Source: a virus. Taken from it: a stretch of DNA of 23,200 nucleotides. The notes beneath the pieces are model-generated. The model was not told where the DNA came from, made no database searches, and was given only the letters and a program-made list of their open reading frames with translations. Positions 10,436-23,200 of the stretch are shown in pieces (the stretch's first letter is position 1; each line of letters starts with the position of its first letter). The stretch spans positions 1-23,200 of IMG/VR virus record IMGVR_UViG_3300047667_001319. One strand, written 5' to 3'. Made by a program: the position numbers and the translations under genes.

Positions 10436-10498
10436 ACAATAACACTACGTTCATCGAACAGACTCGTACCTCGCTGTCGTTGAACTGCCTGTTATAAA
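10436..10498 (-). repeat. attC site m2 (end of the minus-strand cassette block)
   Basis: Minus strand: starts TTTATAAC, ends GTTATTGT, with an imperfect inverted repeat between (CAGTTCAACGAC... TCGATGAACGTAGT). It is the same family as the terminal attC of the plus-strand array at 20792-20853. Core ends and hairpin fit an integron cassette recombination site. Confidence 0.8.
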
Positions 10499-10499
10499 C

Positions 10500-10691
10500 C
10501 TAGTTCACTATATGGACTCCTTGAACTTGGTTTTTAAAATTCCCACGCAGAAGCTCAAGAAGCTTTTTAGCACCATCTTCTTCCCGTCTAACTATTGATT
10601 CAGGGGAAGTTCCTGCTTGCAAAATATTTATTATCTGTAGCGCTTCGCGCTCATTTATATCTACAGAAATCGTTTTTGTCTTAGCTTTCAT
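10500..10691 (-). CDS. Integron cassette ORF, 63 aa, unknown
   Basis: Starts at ATG 10691 with GAGGT four bases upstream and stops at the edge of attC m2; a second attC lies just upstream, so the ORF fills one complete cassette of about 270 bp. The protein starts MKAKTKTISVDINEREALQI and is charged, with a helical C-terminal part (EEDGAKKLLELL). The N-terminal strand-helix pattern is faintly like a ribbon-helix-helix protein but I would not name it. Base use differs from the A/C-skewed phage genes on either side. Confidence 0.7.
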   Translation of the reverse strand: MKAKTKTISVDINEREALQIINILQAGTSPESIVRREEDGAKKLLELLRGNFKNQVQGVHIVN

Positions 10692-10703
10692 GTCTACCTC
10701 GAT

Positions 10704-10764
10704 TTATAACAATGCGTTAAATTCGAGCCTCGTTTCACTCGTCCAAATTACCGCGTGGTTATTT
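10704..10764 (-). repeat. attC site m1
   Basis: Minus strand: AAATAACC at one end, GTTATAAA at the other, with inner arms CGCGGTAATTTG and CGAATTTAACGC forming an imperfect hairpin. Closely related to the attC sites at 17724, 18359, 19167 and 20597. The stop codon of the upstream ORF lies in its first core, as usual for cassettes. Confidence 0.85.
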
Positions 10765-10947
10765 GGGCGCTTGAGTTGCATCAGCTTCTGATATGTCTGC
10801 GTTAAGGTTATGGCCGCAACTACCGCAAGGCTCTTCGCTATCGGTGTTATTTTTGTGCTTACAAGCTCCGCAAGGGAAGGCAAAACCTGCTACCGAATGA
10901 GGCGCTTCAAACTTATCGCTTTTAACTATGTACTGTTCAATTCCCAC
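10759..10947 (-). CDS. Integron cassette ORF, 62 aa, with two cysteine pairs
   Basis: Read from GTG 10947 with AGGGG upstream; starts MGIEQYIVKSDKFEAPHSVA. Residues 26-29 (CGAC) and 41-44 (CGSC) form a likely zinc ribbon with a 14-residue knuckle. The frame stays open upstream to a TTG at 11109, but that part runs through a terminator and a half attC, so the GTG start is preferred. The TAA lies inside attC m1. Function unknown; small zinc-ribbon proteins are common cassette contents. Confidence 0.6.
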   Translation of the reverse strand: MGIEQYIVKSDKFEAPHSVAGFAFPCGACKHKNNTDSEEPCGSCGHNLNADISEADATQAPK

Positions 10948-12180: not shown

Positions 12181-12209
12181 ATAAAAACACGTTTCGTGTT
12201 TATCGTCAA
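12181..12209 (-). promoter_or_regulatory. Leftward early (lytic) promoter
   Basis: Minus strand TTGACG (12204-12209), 17-base spacer, TTTTAT (12181-12186). Operator OR1 fills the spacer. Start of transcription falls at about 12174, the first base of the Cro-like ATG. Confidence 0.7.
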
Positions 12210-12247
12210 CACAAGACGTGTTTAAGGGTGCAACACAATGCGTGATA
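12185..12247. promoter_or_regulatory. Repressor operators, right cluster (OR-like)
   Basis: AAACACGTTTCGTGTTT (12185-12201) is a perfect palindrome apart from its centre. CAACACAAGACGTGTTT (12207-12223) is a second copy, centre to centre 22 bp. A weaker third copy, CAACACAATGCGTGATA (12231-12247), overlaps the repressor start codon. The same motif recurs at 14177-14236. Confidence 0.8.
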
Positions 12248-14105: not shown

Positions 14106-14176
14106 GCGTTTTTAAGAAAATTTTTAACTTTTCTTCTCGTTATCTACATCAACCCAAAAACACACACCAAACATAA

Positions 14177-14236
14177 AAACACGATTTGTGTTGACATAAA
14201 CACAAATTGTGTTTTTAATTAACACAAAACGTGTTT
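14177..14236. promoter_or_regulatory. Repressor operators, left cluster (OL-like)
   Basis: Three 17-bp sites: AAACACGATTTGTGTTG (14177-14193), AAACACAAATTGTGTTT (14198-14214), TAACACAAAACGTGTTT (14220-14236), centres 21 and 22 bp apart. They match the sites at 12185-12223, so the same repressor should bind both clusters. Two-turn spacing allows cooperative binding on one face. Confidence 0.85.
14191..14226 (+). promoter_or_regulatory. Rightward early promoter (pL-like)
   Basis: TTGACA (14191-14196), 17-base spacer, TTTAAT (14214-14219). The middle operator fills the spacer exactly, so bound repressor must block the polymerase. Confidence 0.8.
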
Positions 14237-14265
14237 AAGACAAACGCAACACAGGGAGTAAGCAA

Positions 14266-14748
14266 ATGCCAATCGCACTCGCACCACGCGAAAAAGAATA
14301 CATCGAATGCATAAAGCAGGGGATGAGCGACAAAGAAGCCGCTCGCGAAATGCATTGCGGACTCAGCGGCATCATCTCAACTGCAAAACGCTCACGCTAC
14401 AAACTGTCAGCAAAAAACCGCACAGAACTCATCATCAACGCAATACGCGCCGGGTTTATCGAACTCAGCCTAATCATCTGCGTACTGATGCAATGCACCA
14501 CCACAAACGACATAGAACGCCCATCGCCACGCGGGCGCACAGCCCAGCACCGCACAACCCGCACAGGGCGACCCGCCCGCGGCAGCAACTTGCTACGGAT
14601 GCGTACACGCAACAAAACACACTCACAACTACCACCCAGCGAACTAGCAAACAACCTAATTCACTGGACAGGCGGCGAGATCTACCAAACCTACGACTTA
14701 CAGGGGCTAAATCATGAGCAAAATACTCATACACCCAACCATGTTTAA
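14266..14748 (+). CDS. LuxR-type HTH protein, first gene of the rightward early operon
   Basis: 160 aa, AGGGAG upstream. Residues 5-65 form a LuxR/GerE-like helix-turn-helix (LAPREKEYIECIKQGMSDKE then NRTELIINAIRAG). After a hydrophobic stretch (ELSLIICVLM, about 68-77) the rest is basic and low in structure (RPSPRGRTAQHRTTRTGRPA). There is no receiver or ligand domain. As first gene it may regulate early transcription or act as an antiterminator-like factor. A second overlapping frame is open but lacks a ribosome site. Confidence 0.65.
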   Translation: MPIALAPREKEYIECIKQGMSDKEAAREMHCGLSGIISTAKRSRYKLSAKNRTELIINAIRAGFIELSLIICVLMQCTTTNDIERPSPRGRTAQHRTTRTGRPARGSNLLRMRTRNKTHSQLPPSELANNLIHWTGGEIYQTYDLQGLNHEQNTHTPNHV

Positions 14749-14869
14749 AAATAACCGCCTCATCGCATTAGAGGCAAAAACAGGGCTGCAGGCGCACATC
14801 ACAAACAACGGAAAAAGCGCCCAACTTATTGCAAAACCCAACAACACAACACCGCCAACAGCGGCATAG
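14714..14869 (+). CDS. Small unknown protein, 51 aa
   Basis: ATG with CAGGGG seven bases upstream. It overlaps the end of the LuxR-type gene by 35 bp. The product (MSKILIHPTMFKNNRLIALE...) has no recognised family. Composition follows the A/C-rich plus strand of its neighbours, so it is likely a real member of the operon. Confidence 0.5.
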   Translation: MSKILIHPTMFKNNRLIALEAKTGLQAHITNNGKSAQLIAKPNNTTPPTAA

Positions 14870-14877
14870 GAGCAAAC

Positions 14878-15120
14878 ATGCATCAAGACCCAGGGCCAAT
14901 GCCAGCACCCAACCCACGGTTTAAACGCATAGGCAAATCATGGCGCTACAACGGCAAAAACATACACGGCTACATAGAGCTAACCCGCTACGGATTAGCT
15001 GGAAAACGCTGGATAGCAAACGCCCACGGCATAGGCTCACTCTCATTCGCAGAACGCGACATAGACAACGCCAAACAATGGCTAATCAGGATGGACGAAC
15101 AACAGGAAACAAAACAATGA
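14878..15120 (+). CDS. Unknown phage protein, 80 aa
   Basis: AGGAG five bases before the ATG. A beta-rich basic middle (RIGKSWRYNGKNIHGYIELT) is followed by a C-terminal helix. The sequence reads like a small nucleic-acid-binding or host-modifying early protein, with no named family. Its stop overlaps the next start as ATGA. Confidence 0.6.
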   Translation: MHQDPGPMPAPNPRFKRIGKSWRYNGKNIHGYIELTRYGLAGKRWIANAHGIGSLSFAERDIDNAKQWLIRMDEQQETKQ

Positions 15121-15425
15121 AACACATCAAAAACGGCAAAATAGACATGCAAGAAGCCGCCCAGCGCACAAACATAAAAGGCGGTTTAGTTGGGCTATAC
15201 AAACTACTAAAAGCCCAACAGCTATTTAACAGCGACAACACACCCAAGCGCCACCTAGTGCAGCAAGGCTTGTTCATATTAGAACCAAAGCGCGCCCGCA
15301 TCGAGGGCCGTCCAGATCGCGAATACATTAAAACATGGGCAACCCTAAACGGCCTCCTATGGCTACACGAAATAGTCGAAAAGCACGGCACCAAAAAAAC
15401 CAACCCAAAAAACGAGGCAGCATAA
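15117..15425 (+). CDS. KilAC-like (phage antirepressor C-terminal type) protein
   Basis: 102 aa from ATG 15117, coupled to the gene before it. The pattern LVGLYKLLKAQQLFNSDNTP, then KRHLVQQGLFILEPKRARIE, then TWATLNGLLWLHE follows the KilAC domain found at the C-terminus of phage antirepressors. There is no N-terminal BRO or KilAN part. Could bind DNA or modulate the repressor. Read from the family pattern by eye. Confidence 0.6.
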   Translation: MKHIKNGKIDMQEAAQRTNIKGGLVGLYKLLKAQQLFNSDNTPKRHLVQQGLFILEPKRARIEGRPDREYIKTWATLNGLLWLHEIVEKHGTKKTNPKNEAA

Positions 15426-15427
15426 CC

Positions 15428-15592
15428 ATGAGCACTGCACCCGATATCCTCCTGTTTATCGCCGCCGCCCTAGTGATCATGCTTATTCTGCTTCTGGGGT
15501 GGGGCATCGCAATAGCAGTAACCGCCGCCTACGCATACGCATCAAACAGACCCATTCGCCCAGCAATTCAGGCACTACTAGACGAATGGTAA
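15428..15592 (+). CDS. Small membrane protein, 54 aa
   Basis: MSTAPDILLF then one long hydrophobic stretch (about residues 7-34) and a short polar tail ending ALLDEW. Weak ribosome site (GAGG at 10 bases). A single-pass or hairpin inner-membrane peptide of the early operon; its role is unknown. Superinfection exclusion is one possibility for such early membrane peptides, without direct evidence here. Confidence 0.55.
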   Translation: MSTAPDILLFIAAALVIMLILLLGWGIAIAVTAAYAYASNRPIRPAIQALLDEW

Positions 15593-15626
15593 GCAACAAC
15601 AAAACAAAGCACAAAAGGCACTGAAC

Positions 15627-16196
15627 ATGACAGACATAATGATCGACCTAGAAACACTAGGATTACAAAAACACTGCACCATCCTAAGCATTGGCGCATG
15701 CGCTTTCGACAGAGACAGCGGCAACATTACATCGACATTCAGCATCGACATAAGCCGCACCGCCAGCGAGTTTATTGGCTTCCGTGAAGACCCTGAAACC
15801 CTCAAATGGTGGAACAATCAATGCCCCGAGGCAAAAGCACTACTTCAGCGCTGCGACTCGCCAACAGACAGCGAACTACCCCACCACGCCGCCGAGCGAT
15901 TTGTCACCTGGTTCAATAATACGGCTGGCAAAAACATAAAAGGCGTCTGGGCAAACGAACCCACATTCGACTGCGAAATCCTAAGCCATTTTCTAACATG
16001 GCTCAAAAAAGAAACGCCTTGGCATTTTCGCCACGAACGCAGCTGTCGAACAATCGTTGATCTAGGCCGCGAACTAGGCATCGATCCAAAAAAAGACATG
16101 CCATTTACCGGAACACCACACAACGCAAAAGACGACGCAATACACCAAGCAAAATACGTTAGCGCGATCTTTCAGCACATAAAAAACAACCACTAA
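15627..16196 (+). CDS. DEDDh 3'-5' exonuclease
   Basis: 189 aa. Motif I IDLETLG gives Asp7 and Glu9, motif II has Asp115 ([10 protein letters not shown]), and motif [13 protein letters not shown] gives His165 and Asp170, a complete DEDDh set. The fold family includes ExoVIII/Rv2179c-like exonucleases of phages. Likely role: DNA or RNA end trimming during replication or recombination. AAAGG lies eight bases before the ATG. Confidence 0.85.
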
Positions 16197-16212
16197 AGCA
16201 AGGAGCAACACA

Positions 16213-16407
16213 ATGCTAATACTCACAAGACGTCCAGGCGAATCAGTAATCATCACACTAGAAGACGGAACCGAAATAAACATCGTCACACTAGAAGTAA
16301 ACGGCAACCAAGTACGCACGGGCTACGTTGCCCCGCTCAACGTAAAAGTGAATCGACAAGAGATCCACGACCGCATCAAACAAGAAAAAGAGGCCCGCGC
16401 AGCATGA
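16213..16407 (+). CDS. csrA: Phage-encoded CsrA family RNA-binding regulator
   Basis: 64 aa, starting [14 protein letters not shown] as in CsrA. The GNQVR core (residues 31-35) and [10 protein letters not shown] (with the RNA-binding Arg at 48) are both intact, so RNA binding to GGA motifs is likely. AAGGAG seven bases upstream is strong. It could redirect host carbon, motility or virulence gene expression, or bind phage RNA. It is coupled by a 4-bp overlap to the next gene. Confidence 0.92.
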
Positions 16408-16811
16408 GCACCCAAAAAAACCAAACCGCCGAGATCGCCGCGCTTAAACAACAACTAAGCACAGCCCAAAAACAACTGCAAAAAGCGCGCGAATCAAACG
16501 AAAAACTAGCCGATGCAATCACAAGCACCGAGCTATCACTCGCACTAAGCCAACAAAGCGCCGACCAGCTCATTAATGAAAACCAAGCGCTTATAGATCA
16601 TATCGCAAACACAGAGAACTGCTTTGGCGTAATCGCAGGCAAATACGAAGGCCCCGCCAGCGAGCAAAATATAAAAATTGCCCACAACGACCTAACAATA
16701 GATGCAGCTATTGCCGCCTATGCAGAAGTAGAAAACTACCCATTTAGTTACATCACCTACAAAGAGATCTCATTTATTGCACTAAAAAGCATAGCGGAGC
16801 AAGCAGCATGA
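16404..16811 (+). CDS. Coiled-coil protein, 135 aa
   Basis: Coupled to csrA by ATGA. Residues 5-70 form a long amphipathic helix with heptad-like pattern ([20 protein letters not shown]). The C-terminal ~60 residues are compact and acidic. This layout is common for phage early proteins of unknown role (often annotated as hypothetical coiled-coil). Coupled by 4 bp to the next gene too. Confidence 0.6.
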
Positions 16812-17242
16812 AAACACAGCACCCAAAACAACCACCCACACACAAAATAGACTTTTTACTCTACCGCAAAACAGAGCGCGGGATATTTAGACTAAACAGC
16901 GCGGGCGAATGGGTGCGCTCAACAATAGATCCAGACGACTTTCGCAGACAGGCAAAAAAACTAACAGAAAAAGAGATCTACCCAACACCACCGCCGCCCC
17001 CAAAAAAAACAAAAATATTTCACAAGGCGCGCACCAGAAACAGACTAAAAAGAATAGAACAAATAAAAAACGCAATACAAAAAGAGCTACAAAAAACAGG
17101 GAAAATACCCAACTACAACCACACAAAAAAAATAACACAGTGCGGAAAACCGCTATACAAAAAAGCATTACTCATGCTCACACAAAACATAACCGCCGAC
17201 GACGCAGTAATTATCTATGAACAAAACAACAGGGCAGCATAA
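16808..17242 (+). CDS. Basic unknown protein, 144 aa
   Basis: Starts [21 protein letters not shown] proline run near residue 60 separates an N-terminal beta-rich half from a very basic helical half (KARTRNRLKRIEQIKNAIQK), suggesting nucleic-acid binding. A C-terminal segment (ITADDAVIIYEQ) looks like a short helix. No family is recognised. ATGA overlap with the coiled-coil gene. Confidence 0.55.
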   Translation: MKTQHPKQPPTHKIDFLLYRKTERGIFRLNSAGEWVRSTIDPDDFRRQAKKLTEKEIYPTPPPPPKKTKIFHKARTRNRLKRIEQIKNAIQKELQKTGKIPNYNHTKKITQCGKPLYKKALLMLTQNITADDAVIIYEQNNRAA

Positions 17243-17402
17243 ACAACTAAACCCGCAACACTGGGATTGGCGCCAATGCTCAAAAGCAACAAACAAAAAA
17301 CCAATCCCCCGCTGCAACTTCCCGCACTGCCAATGCCCGTTTGACATAACACCGGACATGAAGTGCCTCAAAGGACGACCCACTAAAAAGCAAGGAGCAT
17401 AA
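17217..17402 (+). CDS. Small cysteine-containing protein, 61 aa
   Basis: Overlaps the end of the previous gene by 26 bp. Cysteines at CNFPHCQCPF and DMKC could bind zinc. The ribosome site is weak. It is immediately followed by the methyltransferase fragment, and the composition is still phage-like. Confidence 0.5.
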   Translation: MNKTTGQHKQLNPQHWDWRQCSKATNKKPIPRCNFPHCQCPFDITPDMKCLKGRPTKKQGA

Positions 17403-17403
17403 A

Positions 17404-17508
17404 ATGATTACAATAAACAGCTACTTTTGCGGCGCAGGACTAATAAATACAGGCAGAGCGAACACTCCGCTATTCAATAGATCAAGAAAAAGAAAAGGTG
17501 ATTCATGA
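17404..17508 (+). pseudogene. DNA (cytosine-5) methyltransferase gene, N-terminal fragment
   Basis: AAGGAG then ATG at 17404; the first residues MITINSYFCGAGLINTG match the start and motif I (SYFxGxGL) of phage C5-methyltransferases. After about residue 17 the similarity stops, the composition changes, and a stop follows at 17508 as the first cassette ORF begins. No other part of the gene is found in the window. The cassette array appears to have interrupted and replaced the rest of the gene. Confidence 0.6.
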
Positions 17509-17729
17509 CGGAAGAGAAGATTAAAGCCGATGCAGTAAAGAATTTTGTTAACTTAATGATTGGCGCGCTAGAAGCAGGTTTTGTTGATTCAAACAGCCCC
17601 ACGCTTGCAGAAATTCATCAAGTGGCAAAACACCACATAAAAGACACTTACGGGATAGACACCCCAAACATTTCTGAAGAATGGGGAGAAGATGTTGCAG
17701 CACTATGCGGGCTTAAAAAGCCGGAATAA
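17505..17729 (+). CDS. Cassette 1 ORF, 74 aa, unknown
   Basis: MTEEKIKADAVKNFVNLMIG... An acidic helical protein with AAGGTG upstream. The middle (SPTLAEIHQVAKHHIKDTYG) reads as a helix. No family is recognised. The TAA is part of the attC that follows. Confidence 0.65.
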   Translation: MTEEKIKADAVKNFVNLMIGALEAGFVDSNSPTLAEIHQVAKHHIKDTYGIDTPNISEEWGEDVAALCGLKKPE

Positions 17730-17785
17730 CCCAGCGGTAATTTGAGCGAGCGGAACGAGATTCGAAATTAAGCGCCTTGCTATTT
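17724..17785 (+). repeat. attC a
   Basis: GAATAAC ... GCTATTT, with inner arms GCGGTAATTTG and GAAATTAAGCGC. Nearly the same sequence as attC c. The right core has GCT where GTT is expected. Confidence 0.8.
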
Positions 17786-17801
17786 TGCGCGGGAGGTAAG
17801 A

Positions 17802-18008
17802 ATGGAAATCGATGTAGATATTAAACGCATAAGTAATGGCTATGTTGTTAAAAGCAATGATAGCTCGAACTCAGAGCGCTATTACCCAACCCTCGGTGAC
17901 ATTATGAGAGCATGGGTAATTGAAGATTTAAACGATAGAGATCGGGAGATTAGAGGGTCTAATTCAGAAGGAACGGTCTGGAAATTTAAGCTTAAGACAG
18001 ACTTATAA
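17802..18008 (+). CDS. Cassette 2 ORF, 68 aa, unknown
   Basis: MEIDVDIKRISNGYVVKSND..., GGGAGG six bases upstream. Alternating strands at the front, one acidic helix (IMRAWVIEDLNDRDREI), then a strand-rich end. It resembles small single-domain cassette proteins of unknown role. The stop lies in attC b. Confidence 0.65.
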   Translation: MEIDVDIKRISNGYVVKSNDSSNSERYYPTLGDIMRAWVIEDLNDRDREIRGSNSEGTVWKFKLKTDL

Positions 18009-18071
18009 CAACGCGATAAAACGCGCGAGAGCAGCGAGCAGCGAGCAGTCGGATTGATTGCATTGTTATCT
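18003..18071 (+). repeat. attC b
   Basis: TTATAAC ... GTTATCT. It contains a triplicated GAGCAGC-like unit (18026-18048) in the loop, making it longer than its neighbours. Intact GTT core. Confidence 0.8.
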
Positions 18072-18091
18072 TTTAAATTAAAGGACGTGTG

Positions 18092-18361
18092 ATGAAAAGA
18101 TTAGGAAATAAAGCAATTAAGAGTGATGAAATGCAGGGTGTCATCGATGGTACTAACTCAAGTATAGAAGTAGGAACGTTGAGACTTGAGCTTGATAGAG
18201 ATACTGCGTGGGCGCTTTGTAATGTTTTAAGCAAAAACCATATTGAAAATGAATGTGTGATGCAGTTAGACAAAAACCAATACAATAGTTTAATTAAATT
18301 AGGTTCTGCTATCGGTGCATTTATTGATCACAGCAACCGCGAGTTCGACCATTTAAAATAA
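18092..18361 (+). CDS. Cassette 3 ORF, 89 aa, unknown
   Basis: ATG at 18092 with AAGGA six bases upstream; a GTG three bases earlier is possible. The sequence (IEVGTLRLELDRDTAWALCN...) has a strand, then helices. No domain is recognised. The stop TAA at 18359 is part of attC c. Confidence 0.65.
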   Translation: MKRLGNKAIKSDEMQGVIDGTNSSIEVGTLRLELDRDTAWALCNVLSKNHIENECVMQLDKNQYNSLIKLGSAIGAFIDHSNREFDHLK

Positions 18362-18420
18362 TAACCCAGCGGTAATTTGAGCGAGTGGGACGAGATTCGA
18401 AATTAAGCGCCTTATTATTT
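18359..18420 (+). repeat. attC c
   Basis: TAATAAC ... ATTATTT, almost identical to attC a in the arms. The right core has ATT instead of GTT, so the cut between G and TT is lost. Confidence 0.75.
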
Positions 18421-18437
18421 GGCACGGGATAATAGAA

Positions 18438-18620
18438 ATGACAGAAATTATTGAATGAGAACCAACAGAAGAATTAAGATGGTTTAGCTATGACGAGCGA
18501 TATTTCCCAAAAAAACTACAACGGAAGTTTATCTGTAAATATTCTGACGGGTGGTCCTGTGAGATATGGGCGGATGTACACGAGAACAATCCTCTTGCTC
18601 GCGTTGAAGCAACCAAATAA
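18438..18620 (+). pseudogene. Cassette 4 ORF with a premature stop
   Basis: Frame from ATG 18438 gives MTEIIE, then TGA at codon 7, then 53 further residues with normal coding character (EELRWFSYDERYFPKKLQRK, then WSCEIWADVHENN) to a TAA that lies in attC d. A single base change (for example TGG to TGA) would explain it. Without it the product would be a 60-aa acidic protein. Ribosome site is poor. A sequencing error cannot be ruled out from this sequence. Confidence 0.6.
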
Positions 18621-18678
18621 CCCCACGGCTTAGCCGATGGAGCGCAACGACAGTCGAGCTTAGAGCCGATTTTTATAC
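18615..18678 (+). repeat. attC d
   Basis: AAATAAC ... TTTATAC, a different attC family with arms CGGCTTAGCCGATGG and CTTAGAGCCG. The right core has TTT for GTT, so recombination at this site should be impaired. Confidence 0.7.
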
Positions 18679-18698
18679 GAATATTTTAGGGATTAGAA

Positions 18699-18937
18699 AT
18701 GACTTACACAGCAAAAAACCATTGGCTAGACAGAGATGAAACTGCCGACACAATGATAGAAATAATGAAGGAGTGCCGGGTATTTAAAGTGCTTAAAAAG
18801 GCTATGAATTTGAAGTTATTGAATGCTGTGATGAGTATTTCGGTGTAACTTTAACTAAAGAGCAAATGCTTGCGCTTGCTGACGAAATTAAAGCTTTAGC
18901 TAATAGCGTACAACCCGAGAGCTCGAGGAAAAGTTAG
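18699..18937 (+). pseudogene. Cassette 5 ORF, first part, frameshifted
   Basis: From ATG 18699 the first ~34 codons (MTYTAKNHWLDRDETADTMI) are coding-like, then the frame ends at 18847. The frame one base back stays coding-like from about 18802 (GYEFEVIECCDEYFGVTLTK then MLALADEIKALAN) to a stop at 18937. The change falls in an A run (CTTAAAAAGG). A one-base loss there is the simplest explanation. Confidence 0.5.
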
Positions 18938-19172
18938 ATTTTGCGGCTCGCGCAAAGAGCGACTTATTAGCGGTTTACGACAGAGGATTGGAGTAACCGA
19001 GGACATTGTCAGCGATGAGGAGCTTCTTGAAAAGACAAAAAACACACTGAGCAGAGCTATAGTTGATTTAGAAATTGCCACGGCGGATTTTACAAAGGCA
19101 GCAACGCCGGAAGTTGTAAAAATAGCTACTGACATAAATAAGGCCTTCACCAAGATTCGGGCGGACCGCTAA
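18900..19172 (+). pseudogene. Cassette 5 remainder, open frame without a start codon
   Basis: A frame opens after a stop at 18897-18899 and reads to the TAA at 19170 (RARGKVRFCGSRKERLISGL then EDIVSDEELLEKTKNTLSRA and DINKAFTKIRADR). No usable ATG with a ribosome site is present. It shares its reading frame with the first part before the shift. It may be the decayed second half of the same gene, or of a second cassette whose attC was deleted. A third frame (ELEEKLDFAARAKSDLLAVY to a stop at 18994) also looks coding-like, so more than one indel is likely. Confidence 0.4.
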
Positions 19173-19228
19173 CCACGCGCTAATTTGAGTGAGTGAAACG
19201 AGATTCAGAATTAAGCGCATTGTTATGC
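19167..19228 (+). repeat. attC e
   Basis: CGCTAAC ... GTTATGC. Arms CGCGCTAATTTGAG and CAGAATTAAGCGC; nearly the same as attC i. Intact core. Confidence 0.85.
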
Positions 19229-19248
19229 GATTGATTAAAGGTAAATTC

Positions 19249-19584
19249 ATGAAGACAAGGCAATACAAAAAACTCTGCAAGAAGGCTATGGAAATATTAG
19301 TGACTGGCGGTATGAATCAGGAGGACTTCTATCAAGGGGAAGACTGTCTGACATATAAAGGAAAAACGCATTGGCTTAAATGCTGGGGCCTAGAGACCGG
19401 CCCTGACTATTTCGGTGAATGCGATTGGTTCGATGCTTGGTATATTCTTACGGAGCGTGTAGCAATTAATACCGCTGATTTCGAATCATGCACTGGTAGC
19501 GACGAAGACGACCCTTGGCGCACAAGCGTTACAGGGACCATAAACATACTGCGACATGGGCGATTAATGTACGGGCTCGCATAA
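19249..19584 (+). CDS. Cassette 6 ORF, 111 aa, unknown
   Basis: ATG 19249 with AAAGG upstream; the frame is open further upstream through attC e, but that part is not coding. The product (MKTRQYKKLCKKAMEILVTG...) has a basic N-terminus and an acidic, aromatic-rich middle (WGLETGPDYFGECDWFDAWY). No family is recognised. Stop in attC f. Confidence 0.65.
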   Translation: MKTRQYKKLCKKAMEILVTGGMNQEDFYQGEDCLTYKGKTHWLKCWGLETGPDYFGECDWFDAWYILTERVAINTADFESCTGSDEDDPWRTSVTGTINILRHGRLMYGLA

Positions 19585-19640
19585 CCCGTGCATAAAACGG
19601 GCGAACGGAGAGAGCATCGTTTTTGATGCAATTGTTAGCA
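19579..19640 (+). repeat. attC f
   Basis: GCATAAC ... GTTAGCA. A third family, with arms GTGCATAAAACGGG and CGTTTTTGATGCAAT. Intact core. Confidence 0.8.
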
Positions 19641-19653
19641 CTTCGAGGTAAAC

Positions 19654-19911
19654 ATGAAAGTTAAAGCAAAATGGAAATACTACGATAGGAGAAAGTACGA
19701 ACTGAAAGAGATTGAGACAACTTACTGCTGCGACGATGCGCGAAACTCAAGCGCGATCACGTTTGGAGAAGTAGACAGCACTCTTAACAGGAATGAGTGT
19801 GTCAACATATCGAGCTGTGCGCCATACCCAGAGGGTGCCGTGTGGGATGAAGAGCCTATTAACTTCTGCCCATTTTGCGGCGCGAAGATACAGATAGATA
19901 TTGAGTGCTAA
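19654..19911 (+). CDS. Cassette 7 ORF, 85 aa, zinc-ribbon-like
   Basis: MKVKAKWKYYDRRKYELKEI..., GAGGT five bases upstream. Cysteine pair YCCDD near residue 25 and a C-terminal INFCPFCGAKIQ knuckle suggest a zinc ribbon similar to small rubredoxin-like domains. Stop in attC g. Confidence 0.65.
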   Translation: MKVKAKWKYYDRRKYELKEIETTYCCDDARNSSAITFGEVDSTLNRNECVNISSCAPYPEGAVWDEEPINFCPFCGAKIQIDIEC

Positions 19912-19965
19912 CCTTTGCCATAAAAGGCGAGCGAAGCGAAGTCCGATTTAATGGCGTTGTTATAC
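19906..19965 (+). repeat. attC g
   Basis: TGCTAAC ... GTTATAC; arms TTTGCCATAAAAGG and CCGATTTAATGGCG. Intact core. Confidence 0.8.
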
Positions 19966-19979
19966 GCCGGGAGCTAGAG

Positions 19980-20306
19980 ATGAGAAACGAACCGACAAAG
20001 GCTTATGTTTACCAGCCAATGCCACCGCAAGAGGATGGAAAGTTTTATGGTGTGGGTGGGCTGCACCAGCTTGGCGTTGACATTGATCACCGTGTGAAAG
20101 GAATTACAAAAGCCGATGCGCAAAAAATTGCCGAACAGTGCAATCAAAAACCAGCCGATGCTGCACAGTTTATAGAAATGGTGCAGGATCGGATAGATAG
20201 CGACTGGCGGCCTGAGTGCGGGTGTCGGTTTGAAAGCATTTTTTCCAATGCGGTTTTGCTGTGTGCGGAGTGTAGCGAACTACCCTGCCACAACAGAGGC
20301 GTATAA
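19980..20306 (+). CDS. Cassette 8 ORF, 108 aa, cysteine-rich
   Basis: ATG 19980 with GGGAG upstream. The front (KAYVYQPMPPQEDGKFYGVG) is followed by a helical middle, then a cluster of cysteines (CGC, then LLCAECSELPCH) typical of a small zinc-binding unit. Upstream open frame is attC g sequence and excluded. No family is recognised. Confidence 0.65.
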   Translation: MRNEPTKAYVYQPMPPQEDGKFYGVGGLHQLGVDIDHRVKGITKADAQKIAEQCNQKPADAAQFIEMVQDRIDSDWRPECGCRFESIFSNAVLLCAECSELPCHNRGV

Positions 20307-20363
20307 CCCAGTTTTTAACGGGTGCGAGTTTAACGAGCATCCACTTTGAAATATTTGTTATTC
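20301..20363 (+). repeat. attC h
   Basis: GTATAAC ... GTTATTC. Arms run CAGTTTTTAACGGG and CCACTTTGAA; less symmetric than others but core intact. Confidence 0.75.
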
Positions 20364-20377
20364 GGCTGGAGCTAGAT

Positions 20378-20602
20378 ATGAGCGAAAAAATGCACCAAGC
20401 AAACCATAGCGAATACCAAATCAGGGTCGATGGAAAGCCAGTTTATTTTAACGGCTGCATCAGCAAGCACACGTTTAACAAATACCGTGAGCTATGCCGC
20501 GAAAACCCTGATTGCTACGTTGATATTGTACGGGTGTCTACTGACATTATTTGCAACCAAGGGACCTACCACGAATTTAAGCGGCACTTTGAAGCCGTAT
20601 AA
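20378..20602 (+). CDS. Cassette 9 ORF, 74 aa, unknown
   Basis: MSEKMHQANHSEYQIRVDGK..., GGAG upstream. A compact mixed alpha/beta protein, with GKPVYFNGCISKHTFNKYRE and a C-terminal helix. Cysteines are present but not in a clear ribbon pattern. Stop in attC i. Confidence 0.65.
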   Translation: MSEKMHQANHSEYQIRVDGKPVYFNGCISKHTFNKYRELCRENPDCYVDIVRVSTDIICNQGTYHEFKRHFEAV

Positions 20603-20658
20603 CCACGCGCTAATTTGAGCGAGTGAAACGAGATTCAGAATTAAGCGCCTTGTTATTT
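20597..20658 (+). repeat. attC i
   Basis: GTATAAC ... GTTATTT, a near copy of attC e with the same hairpin arms. Intact core. Confidence 0.85.
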
Positions 20659-20678
20659 GGCGCGGGAGATAGAAAGTG

Positions 20679-20786
20679 ATGAGTAAAAAAGAGAAGAAAG
20701 AAAAATGCGTGCATTGCGGAAAGAAGATGAAGGCGTGGACAGTTGTTTGCCCTCATTGCGGGAAAGTGAACGGCCACAATAGATAG
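20679..20786 (+). CDS. Cassette 10 ORF, 35-aa two-knuckle zinc ribbon
   Basis: ATG 20679 with GGGAG upstream. MSKKEKKEKCVHCGKKMKAW then VVCPHCGKVNGHN, giving two CxxC knuckles with 11 residues between, a minimal zinc ribbon. Very short but with the right start, stop and attC neighbours for a cassette gene. It is too short for the usual ORF length cut-offs. Confidence 0.7.
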   Translation: MSKKEKKEKCVHCGKKMKAWTVVCPHCGKVNGHNR

Positions 20787-20791
20787 CCGCC

Positions 20792-20853
20792 AAATAACAA
20801 GCAGTTCAACGCCTGCGAGGTTACGAGCTGTACCGATGAACGTAGTGTTATTT
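20792..20853 (+). repeat. attC j (end of the array)
   Basis: AAATAAC ... GTTATTT with arms CAGTTCAACGCC and CGATGAACGTAGT. Same family as attC m2 in the minus-strand block. It marks the right end of the array; sequence after 20853 is not a cassette. Confidence 0.85.
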
Positions 20854-20897
20854 ATGTATTAAACAATACACATGCCACAAGCAACCTAAGCACTGTA

Positions 20898-20926
20898 TAT
20901 TCGGTATTTTATTCGGAAGTATTCGG
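20898..20926. repeat. Three TATTCGG direct repeats
   Basis: Copies at 20898-20904, 20910-20916 and 20920-20926, spaced 12 and 10 bp. They are next to a terminator and the tRNA-Cys fragment. They may be recombinase arm-type sites of an old attachment region. Confidence 0.45.
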
Positions 20927-20930
20927 ACAT

Positions 20931-20960
20931 AAAAAAAGCACTTAGATAAGTGCTTGATTT
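20931..20960. terminator. Intrinsic terminator beside the tRNA-Cys fragment
   Basis: AAGCACTTA-GA-TAAGTGCTT (20936-20955), preceded by seven As (T run on the minus strand) and followed by Ts on the plus strand. It follows the tRNA fragment as a native tRNA terminator would, and could also end the rightward array transcript. Confidence 0.75.
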
Positions 20961-20963
20961 TAA

Positions 20964-21016
20964 TGGAGGCGCGGGTCGGAATCGAACCGGCGTACACGGA
21001 GTTGCAGACCGCTGCA
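20964..21016 (-). pseudogene. tRNA-Cys(GCA) 3' fragment
   Basis: Minus-strand reading gives GCAGCGGTCTGCAACTCCGT, then GCCGGTTCGATTCCG, then CCCGCGCCTCCA. This is the anticodon arm with GCA, the T arm and the acceptor end with CCA of a cysteine tRNA. The 5' half (GGCGCGG plus D arm) is absent upstream. A C/A mismatch in the T stem also speaks against function. A 3' tRNA piece is what integrating elements often carry at their att site. Confidence 0.65.
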
Positions 21017-21086: not shown

Positions 21087-21341
21087 ATGAACACATTTTT
21101 TGGACTAATGGCCGAATTTGACACAGCAGAAATACCACTAGAAAAGCTATGCGAAAAGTACTTTAACCTAGACATAAAAACAGCATCAACCCGCGCCGCC
21201 CGATCAAAACTACCTGTTGCCGCATACCGCGCAGGCACCCAAAAAAGCCAATGGCTCGTTAGCGCCCAAGCCCTGGCAAACTACCTAGACGCCTGCAAAA
21301 AAGAAGCAGAAGACGACTGGCAAAAACGCAACGCAGCCTAA
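21087..21341 (+). CDS. PrtN-family protein (pyocin-activator-like), possible excisionase
   Basis: 84 aa. The N-terminus MNTFFGLMAEFDTAEIPLEK followed by CEKYFNLD and a C-terminal WLVSAQALANYLDACKKEAE is the PrtN-family pattern, found in many prophages near the integrase. AGGAACC precedes the ATG. In pyocin clusters PrtN activates transcription; small PrtN-like proteins next to integrases may act as recombination directionality factors. Both are possible. Confidence 0.75.
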   Translation: MNTFFGLMAEFDTAEIPLEKLCEKYFNLDIKTASTRAARSKLPVAAYRAGTQKSQWLVSAQALANYLDACKKEAEDDWQKRNAA

Positions 21342-21380: not shown

Positions 21381-22424
21381 CTAATCTATATCCTCGGGCC
21401 TTAAATGCGTATACCGCTTAAGCGTCGCCCAATCCTCATGCAGAGTATGCAACGCCACCTGCTCGATAGGATAACCCTGCTCAAATAATCGGCTAGTCCC
21501 CTCATGCCGCAAATCATGCAGCCGCAAATCATCAATCCCCAGCACTTTGCACGCTTTCGCAAAATACGTTGAAACCGTTTTAGCATTATACGGAAAAATC
21601 AGCTCACCACCCCGAGATTGCCGCTCAACAATCTTCCACGCACCCGCCGTATACTTAAACCGCTTATGATTACCCTTTTTAGCAGTAGGATGCTTTGCGT
21701 CGCGCACCATCCCCGTCCGCCGCTCTGCATTATTATCATCCCACCGCAACCGACACGTTTCCGCATCACGCCGTGCACTATAAATCTGAAACCACATTAA
21801 ATGCAGCATAGGCACCGTCATACATGATCGATACTGCTTGCGCCAAAAATAACGCGACAACGCCCACAACTCAGCCCGCGTTGGCCGCCGATCCCGCCGC
21901 CGCGACCTTGCAATCATCTTATGCTGCCGCAACAACGCCTTAGCATCAGGAATTAACGACAAATCAATCGGAATACCATCACTCGCCCTAACCGTCTTAA
22001 AAATACCCGACAACCAAACATAATCATTATTAATCGTAGACGGCCCCGCCCCCATATCTTTACGATACCGCGCGTGCTCGATCAAATCCTTAACCGTTAA
22101 ACGCATCACAGACTTTTTACTCATCGGACACGTTAACAGCTTATTAATATCGTGCGCCTTAGACCGCCCAAACCCATCATCCGGCGTAAAACTATCAATA
22201 TAACGCTGCACAACATCACCCACCGTTACGCGCTCAGCAAGAACCCTATCCACGCCACCTGCTCCGCGCAACTCTCGCTCCCGCTCAGCTGCCCAATCAA
22301 CCGCCGACGCTTTCTTACTGAATGTTTTAGACTCTCTATGTATAATCTCCCCTTTTTCTTTAATTAAAATCTCAGCCTTATAACGCAATCCCTTTAATGT
22401 TTTGCGCCTGGTAATACTAGCCAT
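21381..22424 (-). CDS. int: Tyrosine-type phage integrase
   Basis: 347 aa from ATG 22424 with AAGGGA upstream; a longer frame to 22454 lacks support. N-terminal DNA-binding part, SAM-like core-binding domain (about residues 65-145), then the catalytic domain. Catalytic residues visible: Arg218/219 (SARRDAETCRLRW), Lys near 249-250, His303 and Arg306 in HDLRHEG, and Tyr338 in LKRYTHL. It is transcribed away from dusA and adjoins it. Integrases at this site form a known dusA-targeting group. The A/C skew of the phage continues through this gene. Confidence 0.93.
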   Translation of the reverse strand: MASITRRKTLKGLRYKAEILIKEKGEIIHRESKTFSKKASAVDWAAERERELRGAGGVDRVLAERVTVGDVVQRYIDSFTPDDGFGRSKAHDINKLLTCPMSKKSVMRLTVKDLIEHARYRKDMGAGPSTINNDYVWLSGIFKTVRASDGIPIDLSLIPDAKALLRQHKMIARSRRRDRRPTRAELWALSRYFWRKQYRSCMTVPMLHLMWFQIYSARRDAETCRLRWDDNNAERRTGMVRDAKHPTAKKGNHKRFKYTAGAWKIVERQSRGGELIFPYNAKTVSTYFAKACKVLGIDDLRLHDLRHEGTSRLFEQGYPIEQVALHTLHEDWATLKRYTHLRPEDID

Positions 22425-22437
22425 TGTGCCATCCCTT

Positions 22438-22495
22438 GGTACGCCTAACGACAAAACAGTACGCCCAGAAATATCAGGCGTACCTTAGGTGTACC
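22438..22495. repeat. Four GGCGTAC(C) motifs, two in each orientation
   Basis: GGTACGCC (22438-22445), GTACGCC (22459-22465), GGCGTACC (22477-22484) and GGTGTACC (22488-22495, one mismatch). They lie between the integrase start and the dusA junction. Likely integrase arm sites or an operator controlling int; they nest as inverted repeats. Confidence 0.6.
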
Positions 22496-22566: not shown

Positions 22567-23200
22567 ATGCCAAGCCCAGTAAACACACCGGATACACTGA
22601 ATAGACGCTTTATGGTTGCGCCGATGATGGATTGGAGTGACCGCCACTGTCGTTATTTTCATCGCCTATTGAGTCAACAAGCGGTTCTCTATTCCGAGAT
22701 GGTAACCACAGGCGCGCTTATCTATGCAGAAGCAGATCGCTTTCTTCGTTATAACATTGAAGAACAGCCCCTTGCGCTTCAATTAGGTGGCAGTAATGCC
22801 GCAGAGTTGGCGCAGTGTAGCAAGATGGCTGAAGATTATGGTTACAATGAAGTGAACCTTAATGTGGGCTGCCCAAGTGATCGCGTACAAAACAACATGA
22901 TTGGTGCGTGTCTTATGGCACACCCTCAAATCGTGGCGGATTGCCTTGAGCAGATGCAAGCAGCGGTCGATATTCCTGTAACGATAAAACATCGTTTAGG
23001 AATAGATGATATGGACAGCTACGATGCGCTAAAGCAGTTTGTCGAAACGGTACGTCAATCGGGCTGTAAGGTATTTATTATTCACGCCCGTAAAGCGATT
23101 TTGCAAGGCTTAAGCCCTAAAGAAAACCGTGATGTTCCCCCACTAAAGTACGACTGGGTCTATCGCATCAAACAGGAATACCCAGAGCTTGAGGTCCACA
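22567..23200 (+). CDS. dusA: tRNA-dihydrouridine synthase A (partial)
   Basis: 211 codons are present and the gene runs off the right edge. Conserved DusA features: RFMVAPMMDWSDRHCRYF, EMVTTGALIY, ALQLGGSNAAELAQC, and NLNVGCPSDRVQ, which holds the likely catalytic Cys102. FIIHARKAILQGLSPKENRD is also typical. The enzyme reduces uridine in the D loop of tRNAs using FMN. The first ~15 codons (MPSPVNTPDTLNRR) are phage-supplied sequence, and there is no good ribosome site before the ATG, so expression after integration may depend on phage-encoded signals. Confidence 0.93.
   Translation, partial: MPSPVNTPDTLNRRFMVAPMMDWSDRHCRYFHRLLSQQAVLYSEMVTTGALIYAEADRFLRYNIEEQPLALQLGGSNAAELAQCSKMAEDYGYNEVNLNVGCPSDRVQNNMIGACLMAHPQIVADCLEQMQAAVDIPVTIKHRLGIDDMDSYDALKQFVETVRQSGCKVFIIHARKAILQGLSPKENRDVPPLKYDWVYRIKQEYPELEVH
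22600..22650. other. Probable prophage-chromosome junction (attR) inside dusA
   Basis: The phage-like A/C-rich composition ends near 22605, and conserved DusA coding sequence starts at the VAPMMDWSDRH segment (22615 on). Integration into the 5' end of dusA is known for this integrase group. The other att copy is outside the window, so the exact core cannot be fixed. Confidence 0.6.

Follow-up and report, generated by a model that had tools for sequence, protein, structure and literature searches.

Two arrays of integron-type attC sites and small open reading frames (ORFs) lie in the IMG/VR record IMGVR_UViG_3300047667_001319, a complete record of 23.2 kb that was analyzed over its whole length and is referred to below as the window. 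The right array, on the + strand, stands between an early operon and a phage integrase gene; the left array is on the - strand. By its gene content the window is a temperate prophage of Neptuniibacter pectenicola integrated at dusA: genes for terminase, portal and head protease (these on the - strand), an integrase and a host junction are all present. As the dusA portion is 98.9% identical to that of the prophage-free N. pectenicola LFT 1.8, the host is, on the evidence of this gene, that species or a very close one.

attC sites and cassettes of the two arrays

The attC sites were located with R1, a covariance model with a 12-pair R/L-box structure that was trained on 19 attC sites, all from phage records other than the window; an energy-only attC scan was too noisy for such short sites and was discarded. 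The pairs of R1 covary (score 0.194 vs 0.085 in shuffles, with 0/500 shuffles as high). In the window the model recovered 12 imperfect palindromes with R''/R' and L''/L' boxes and a covarying stem, ten on the + strand at 17724-20854 (E 4.3e-13 to 2e-3) and two on the - strand at 10436-10764. No R1 match fell outside both arrays in the 23.2 kb, the remaining matches being antisense echoes of the 12 sites, and over 541 kb of other loci R1 matched in array-bearing phages and hardly elsewhere. The ten + strand sites are those proposed in a preliminary description made from the sequence alone, all recovered here by an independent model. That description had missed the left array, as well as the inverted attCs, the special 3'-terminal site, the relic tRNA-Cys attachment site and the intI-bearing related prophages dealt with below.

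With 10 + 2 attC sites (at least two are required) and no integron integrase nearby, the arrays are clusters of attC sites lacking integron integrases (CALINs). Neither intI nor attI was found in the window, where the only integrase detected is of the phage type, so that it holds no complete integron; the earlier view of an integrase-less array inside a prophage, with ORFs aligned with phage transcription, is borne out. Its starting point needs correction. The array begins only after 17453, and the 50 bases from 17404 are the remnant of a C5 cytosine DNA methyltransferase gene that is intact in a sister phage (PF00145).

About eight cassette ORFs of the right array are open (those starting at 17505, 17802, 18092, 19249, 19654, 19980, 20378 and 20679), in keeping with the count of at least eight given previously, and the one at 18699 is frameshifted. 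Differences in cassette ORFs are in excess at third codon positions (45/71, 31/45 and 17/21), and we therefore regard the ORFs as genuine; for cassette ORF 1 and its homologue the differences by codon position are 7/7/31. The cassette proteins gave no Pfam or PADLOC match and only weak PHROG matches, to families of unknown function. They are probably small genes for accessory or counter-defence functions that lie beside a DNA methyltransferase. A sequence scan revealed no excess of internal promoters in the array, a result consistent with read-through. The GTT of the 3' box is lost in three + strand sites (17724, 18359 and 18616), and no ATAAC box in the window is decayed. It was also observed that a leader of ~25 bases with a ribosome-binding site (GTTATTTGGCGCGGGAGATAGAAATG) is conserved after one attC type, ahead of unrelated ORFs, and that it is found behind hybrid attCs as well.

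Table 1. Features of the window and of related loci (window coordinates unless a locus is named)
Feature	Position	Strand	Evidence or remark
K-type terminal attC of left array	10436..10497	-	R1 35.7 bits
Left-array cassette ORF, 63 aa	10500..10691	-	ORF
Left-array attC	10703..10764	-	R1 50.8 bits, E 2.7e-10; R2 on +
Left-array cassette ORF	10759..10947	-	decayed attC half ahead of ORF near 10990-10960
CsrA, early operon upstream of right array	16213..16407	+	PF02599, 1.4e-15
C5 cytosine DNA methyltransferase gene start, 50-base remnant	17404..17453	+	95% identity of window 14176-17453 to sister L012 4244-7541 stops here
Cassette ORF 1, 74 aa	17505..17729	+	homologue in phage G122, there followed by a different attC type
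attC 1, 3' box GTT to GCT	17724..17786	+	R1 41.1 bits, E 6.6e-8
Cassette ORF 2, 68 aa	17802..18008	+	ORF
attC 2	18003..18072	+	R1 53.2 bits; R2 favors - strand, 18.8 vs 13.4 bits
Cassette ORF 3	18092..18361	+	with attC 2 (18004-18365) a 95.3% identical unit in the other array of the sister, ATAAC box at both ends
attC 3, 3' box GTT to ATT	18359..18421	+	R1 38.5 bits
attC 4, 3' box GTT to TTT	18616..18679	+	R1 44.1 bits; R2 on -
Cassette ORF 4, frameshifted; longer and open in sister	18699..18848	+	97.6% identity to L012 9534-9825; protein match stops at residue 42
attC 5	19167..19229	+	R1 51.1 bits
Cassette ORF 5, 111 aa	19249..19584	+	weak match phrog_4894
attC 6	19579..19640	+	R1 22.8 bits; R2 on -
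Cassette ORF 6, 85 aa, zinc-ribbon-like C-terminus	19654..19911	+	weak match phrog_1494
attC 7	19907..19966	+	R1 23.3 bits; R2 on -
Cassette ORF 7, 108 aa	19980..20306	+	ORF
attC 8	20302..20364	+	R1 35.9 bits; R2 on -
Cassette ORF 8, 74 aa	20378..20602	+	ORF
attC 9	20597..20659	+	R1 62.1 bits; R2 on -; 63-base core identical to two sites of unrelated phage L034/G004
Cassette ORF 9, 35 aa, CxxC...CxxC zinc-ribbon-like	20679..20786	+	sequence reading
K-type terminal attC, proposed docking end of right array	20792..20854	+	R1 53.0 bits; same type at ORF-3' end of other phage arrays
Relic attP, 51-base 3' end of tRNA-Cys	20957..21007	-	100% to G005:C182 107879-107929, att core of P2
PrtN-like/excisionase gene	21087..21341	+	PF11112, phrog_1300
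Phage tyrosine integrase, dusA type, not IntI	21381..22454	-	phrog_1
Host dusA, from prophage junction on	22591..23200	+	98.9% nt identity to N. pectenicola LFT 1.8 (L035), no prophage there
Conserved attC leader, occurrences	17767-17802, 18402-18447, 20640-20682; L034 2773 and 3749; L164 3614		
Integron integrases inside prophage ends	L181 10655-11617; L182 10054-11025; L206 1492-2451		beside phage integrase, cassettes reading towards intI

Polarity of the attC sites and the terminal K site

In canonical polarity the attC lies at the 3' end of the cassette gene. This was not found for the phage attCs, which, to judge from their sequences and apart from the K-type sites described below, are inverted relative to their ORFs. 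Thus the structure of the sites in the preliminary description holds, whereas their orientation does not, as they point against the ORFs. The extra bases of the aadA1 attC, a site oriented with the help of an annotated plasmid, are in the R''-L'' arm; most window sites carry them in the other arm (18003, 19907 and K are mixed). The base beside the box separates chromosomal from phage attCs completely: A follows AAC in 15/15 chromosomal Neptuniibacter attCs, and in phage attCs read in ORF direction T precedes GTT in 27/27 and C follows AAC in 25/27. We also made a canonical attC model, R2, from 12 chromosomal sites and aadA1. R2 matched the strand opposite the ORFs at 30/30 non-K phage sites, which represent ~15 sequence families, and in controls outside its training it matched the ORF strand in the Shewanella prophage M16-3 (8/8) and in phage TJE1. 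For phage PH101 neither R1 nor R2 reached E 0.5 in the parts searched.

Breakpoints and the geometry of related prophages agree with this polarity. Two units are shared cleanly, one at window 18004-18365 and the other a MazG-like cassette of the P2/Gpa_13 prophages (P2 being a prophage of N. pectenicola and Gpa_13 a Neptuniibacter metagenome-assembled genome), and both begin and end at ATAAC, not GTT. Two further genes retain their coding sequence but are then followed by different attC families. Moreover, three prophages have their array at the attI side of intI and array ORFs that run towards intI.

The site that closes the right array is of a type, K, that stands at the ORF-3' end of nine arrays: both window arrays, the left array of the sister phage, both arrays of P2, the array of G004, both arrays of G122 and the right array of G123. 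In the right array of the sister K is penultimate, and in G121 it occurs alone, behind a terminator. The end position would arise by chance in ~1 in 900 cases (a hand estimate over four unlike phages, whose arrays have sizes of 10, 6, 3 and 5). No intI was found in any examined phage array ending in K, and K holds the place taken by attI/intI in Gpa_13; the sequence of K is unlike the attI-like repeat found there, and its position fits an array end next to the place of intI. An ordinary docking attC sharing the polarity of the others is not supported for K, where R2 gives the opposite strand, and K may act differently. Since its polarity looks opposite to that of the other sites, it is from position that we infer a docking role for K.

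Cassette turnover and integrases in related phages

Over most blocks the backbone of the sister phage, IMGVR_UViG_3300029263_001577 (36.5 kb), is 94-99% identical to that of the window, and the sister has arrays at the same two places. Its left array has 5 attCs vs 2 in the window, its right array holds mostly different cassettes, and the window unit 18004-18365 sits in its other array at 95.3% identity, a cassette swapped between arrays. As the same two loci carry almost wholly different cassettes, cassettes have, by this comparison, turned over since the two phages split; the agent would be an integron recombinase. Misassembly, which the preliminary description had named as a danger to the array, was rejected because an independent contig shares both array loci and their flanks. 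A candidate third array in the sister (L027 16749-17390), a 640-base insert between the portal and protease genes, contains two small ORFs and a terminator but no attC.

Related IMG/VR phage records yielded no intI over the family cut-off, and no relatives of the prophage IntI were found in IMG/VR. Integron integrases were found inside Neptuniibacter prophages. Two prophage ends of Gpa_13 encode intact IntIs that are 90% identical to each other and 41-46% identical to other IntIs of the genus, and in a small tree the prophage IntIs stand apart from the chromosomal ones. A 48-base attI-like repeat precedes intI directly in both ends and occurs once more before the excisionase in one of them; the arrays are at the attI side, which is the rule for integrons, but their ORFs point towards intI. 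G331 (L206), a genome from another part of the order, shares this layout, next to genes for a phage antirepressor and a phage integrase. Complete integrons, with intI over the TIGR02249 cut-off and an attI-like repeat, were found only in relatives L181 and L182.

The attC families of the window recur in G122, G123, G124, P2 and G004, the last being an unrelated phage with PhoH and sliding-clamp-like genes (named from translations). P2 is ~35 kb long and lies in tRNA-Cys, in the order early operon, methyltransferase, array, K, integrase, array, K and att (tRNA-Cys). Window 20794-21016 is 96.4% identical to the K-plus-att end of P2, and on this match the window phage retains, beside its dusA integration module, the relic attP of a tRNA-Cys phage, that is, its integration module has been swapped.

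Some further features of these phages may be noted. Phage arrays repeatedly begin right after a DNA methyltransferase gene (L012 7492-8427, L197 7996-8886, L175 7451-8077 and L164 before 3614), and the adjoining methyltransferase suggests a counter-defence neighborhood. Besides CsrA, the + strand early operon of the window encodes a LuxR-type helix-turn-helix protein at 14266 (PF00196) and an exonuclease at 15627 (phrog_255). At 12182-12226 and 14174-14239, either side of the repressor and early region, are inverted and direct repeats around AACAC...GTGTT, which are probably operator sites. Rfam and tRNA scans of the window and a plasmid search with it gave no match, and the matches among INPHARED phages were to tRNA-Cys only.

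Interpretation and comparison with known systems

We consider it probable, from the sequence comparisons above, that the window phage carries two integrase-less cassette arrays, each at the close of a phage operon, and that these belong to an inverted type of integron array circulating among phages of Neptuniibacter. Read in the direction of its gene, a plausible mobile unit would consist of an attC followed by an ORF, in many cases with a ribosome-binding leader between them; the TAA that ends the ORF would be part of the next ATAAC box. IntI, provided in trans by the host or by a co-resident prophage, would fold the array attCs and cut at the ATAAC-side box, which would be the true R', and attC-ORF units would be inserted 5' of K or attI. 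Being flipped, the ORFs run with the phage operon, which could therefore express them without an integron promoter, while the geometry of the att sites relative to intI would stay canonical. It is about an even bet whether one may go further and say that phages own an integron lineage, with a phage IntI clade and attI-like site, flipped cassettes and IntI-less derivatives docking at K, the cassette pool being shared mainly among phages, temperate and virulent, and not with bacterial integrons.

Several observations weigh against this interpretation. R2 gives phage sites low scores (9-26 bits); the polarity therefore depends on many weak calls agreeing, together with the other evidence, and at K it is the ORF strand that R2 matches, contrary to the other sites. 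The ORF at 18699 that is shared with the sister breaks inside an attC, at neither box. Some attCs share leaders or half-sites, and ordinary homologous recombination therefore also acts. K-ended arrays would need an IntI supplied in trans, and the chromosomal intI of N. pectenicola LFT 1.8 (L127 1798-2762) is split by a frameshift or assembly error; for that reason the recombinase may come from co-resident prophages.

Other explanations were also weighed. The variation between the sister phages could be due to homologous recombination between repeated attC and leader sequences during co-infection, the integron integrase no longer acting. Repeats of 60-90 bases at 80-100% identity, hybrid attCs, the break inside an attC, the three window attCs with decayed 3' boxes, the absence of intI from these phages and the frameshifted intI of N. 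pectenicola are all as this would have it. We nevertheless find it unlikely, as two clean units start and stop exactly at the 5-6 base ATAAC box though the neighboring attCs belong to different families, and as related prophages have an intact intI. The polarity call itself might be an artefact of attCs that are canonical in function, with spacer bases that merely look inverted, as the low R2 scores and the opposite answer at K would allow; the agreement between base signature, model, breakpoints and the geometry with respect to intI, together with the correct strand given by R2 in two control phages, makes this very unlikely. An ordinary CALIN that hitch-hikes in a prophage, its canonical ORF-attC cassettes derived from a chromosomal integron of the host, would account for genuine attC sites and cassette organization in a genus that has chromosomal integrons, and CALINs in phages are already on record (PMC9892861). 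Such an origin is quite improbable given the opposite polarity signature of chromosomal Neptuniibacter attCs, the few strong R1-type sites in the family outside P2, and a phage attC core that is present in several phages and gave no match in a search of 116 family genomes allowing up to 3 mismatches or in an exact search of genome_contigs.

The accepted view is that integrons capture genes in a single orientation, dictated by the choice of attC strand, for expression from the integron promoter. If inverted arrays are what we think they are, a phage version with all genes turned and read towards intI would show that the polarity of cassette genes is adaptable. It would also account for the modular exchange of accessory genes by phages and define a pool of cassettes that may be misread by standard searches, which look for ORF-attC order; the long-open question of how attC sites and genes come to be joined would become testable. 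The literature searched, to which subscription journals mostly did not belong, yielded no account of arrays in which every attC is inverted relative to its ORF.

The window phage resembles other dusA-integrated prophages in having its integrase gene beside the 5' end of dusA; it is unlike them in keeping the relic tRNA-Cys attP of a relative whose integration module is a different one. CALINs have been known from phages before: Qi et al. (2023, PMC9892861) describe CALINs and integrons of TJE1, PH101, P12002L, M16-3 and Vibrio anguillarum prophages. There, as here, attC arrays without intI occur in virulent and temperate phages (M16-3 has intI), and a DNA methyltransferase is often near. Unlike the window, TJE1 and M16-3 have canonical polarity by R2, and no ORF-inverted attC arrays, recurrent terminal site or comparison of sisters with exchanged cassettes were found in the sections read of that paper. 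The sedentary chromosomal integrons of Neptuniibacter, with intI next to serS (e.g. N. caesariensis MED92), share with the phage arrays the attC arrays themselves and the geometry of the att sites relative to intI; they differ in that their ORFs lead away from intI and their attC signature, read in ORF direction, is AACAAG...GCGTT, and their IntIs are only 41-46% identical to those of the prophages. A parallel in gene direction is with the reverse integrons of Treponema denticola (PMC3607928, PMC7691350), in which intI and the cassette genes are likewise transcribed in the same direction. In Treponema, though, it is the intI gene that is turned and the ORFs stop in R'', as they normally do, whereas the phage system has canonical intI geometry, with the ORFs turned relative to attC and intI downstream of the cassettes.

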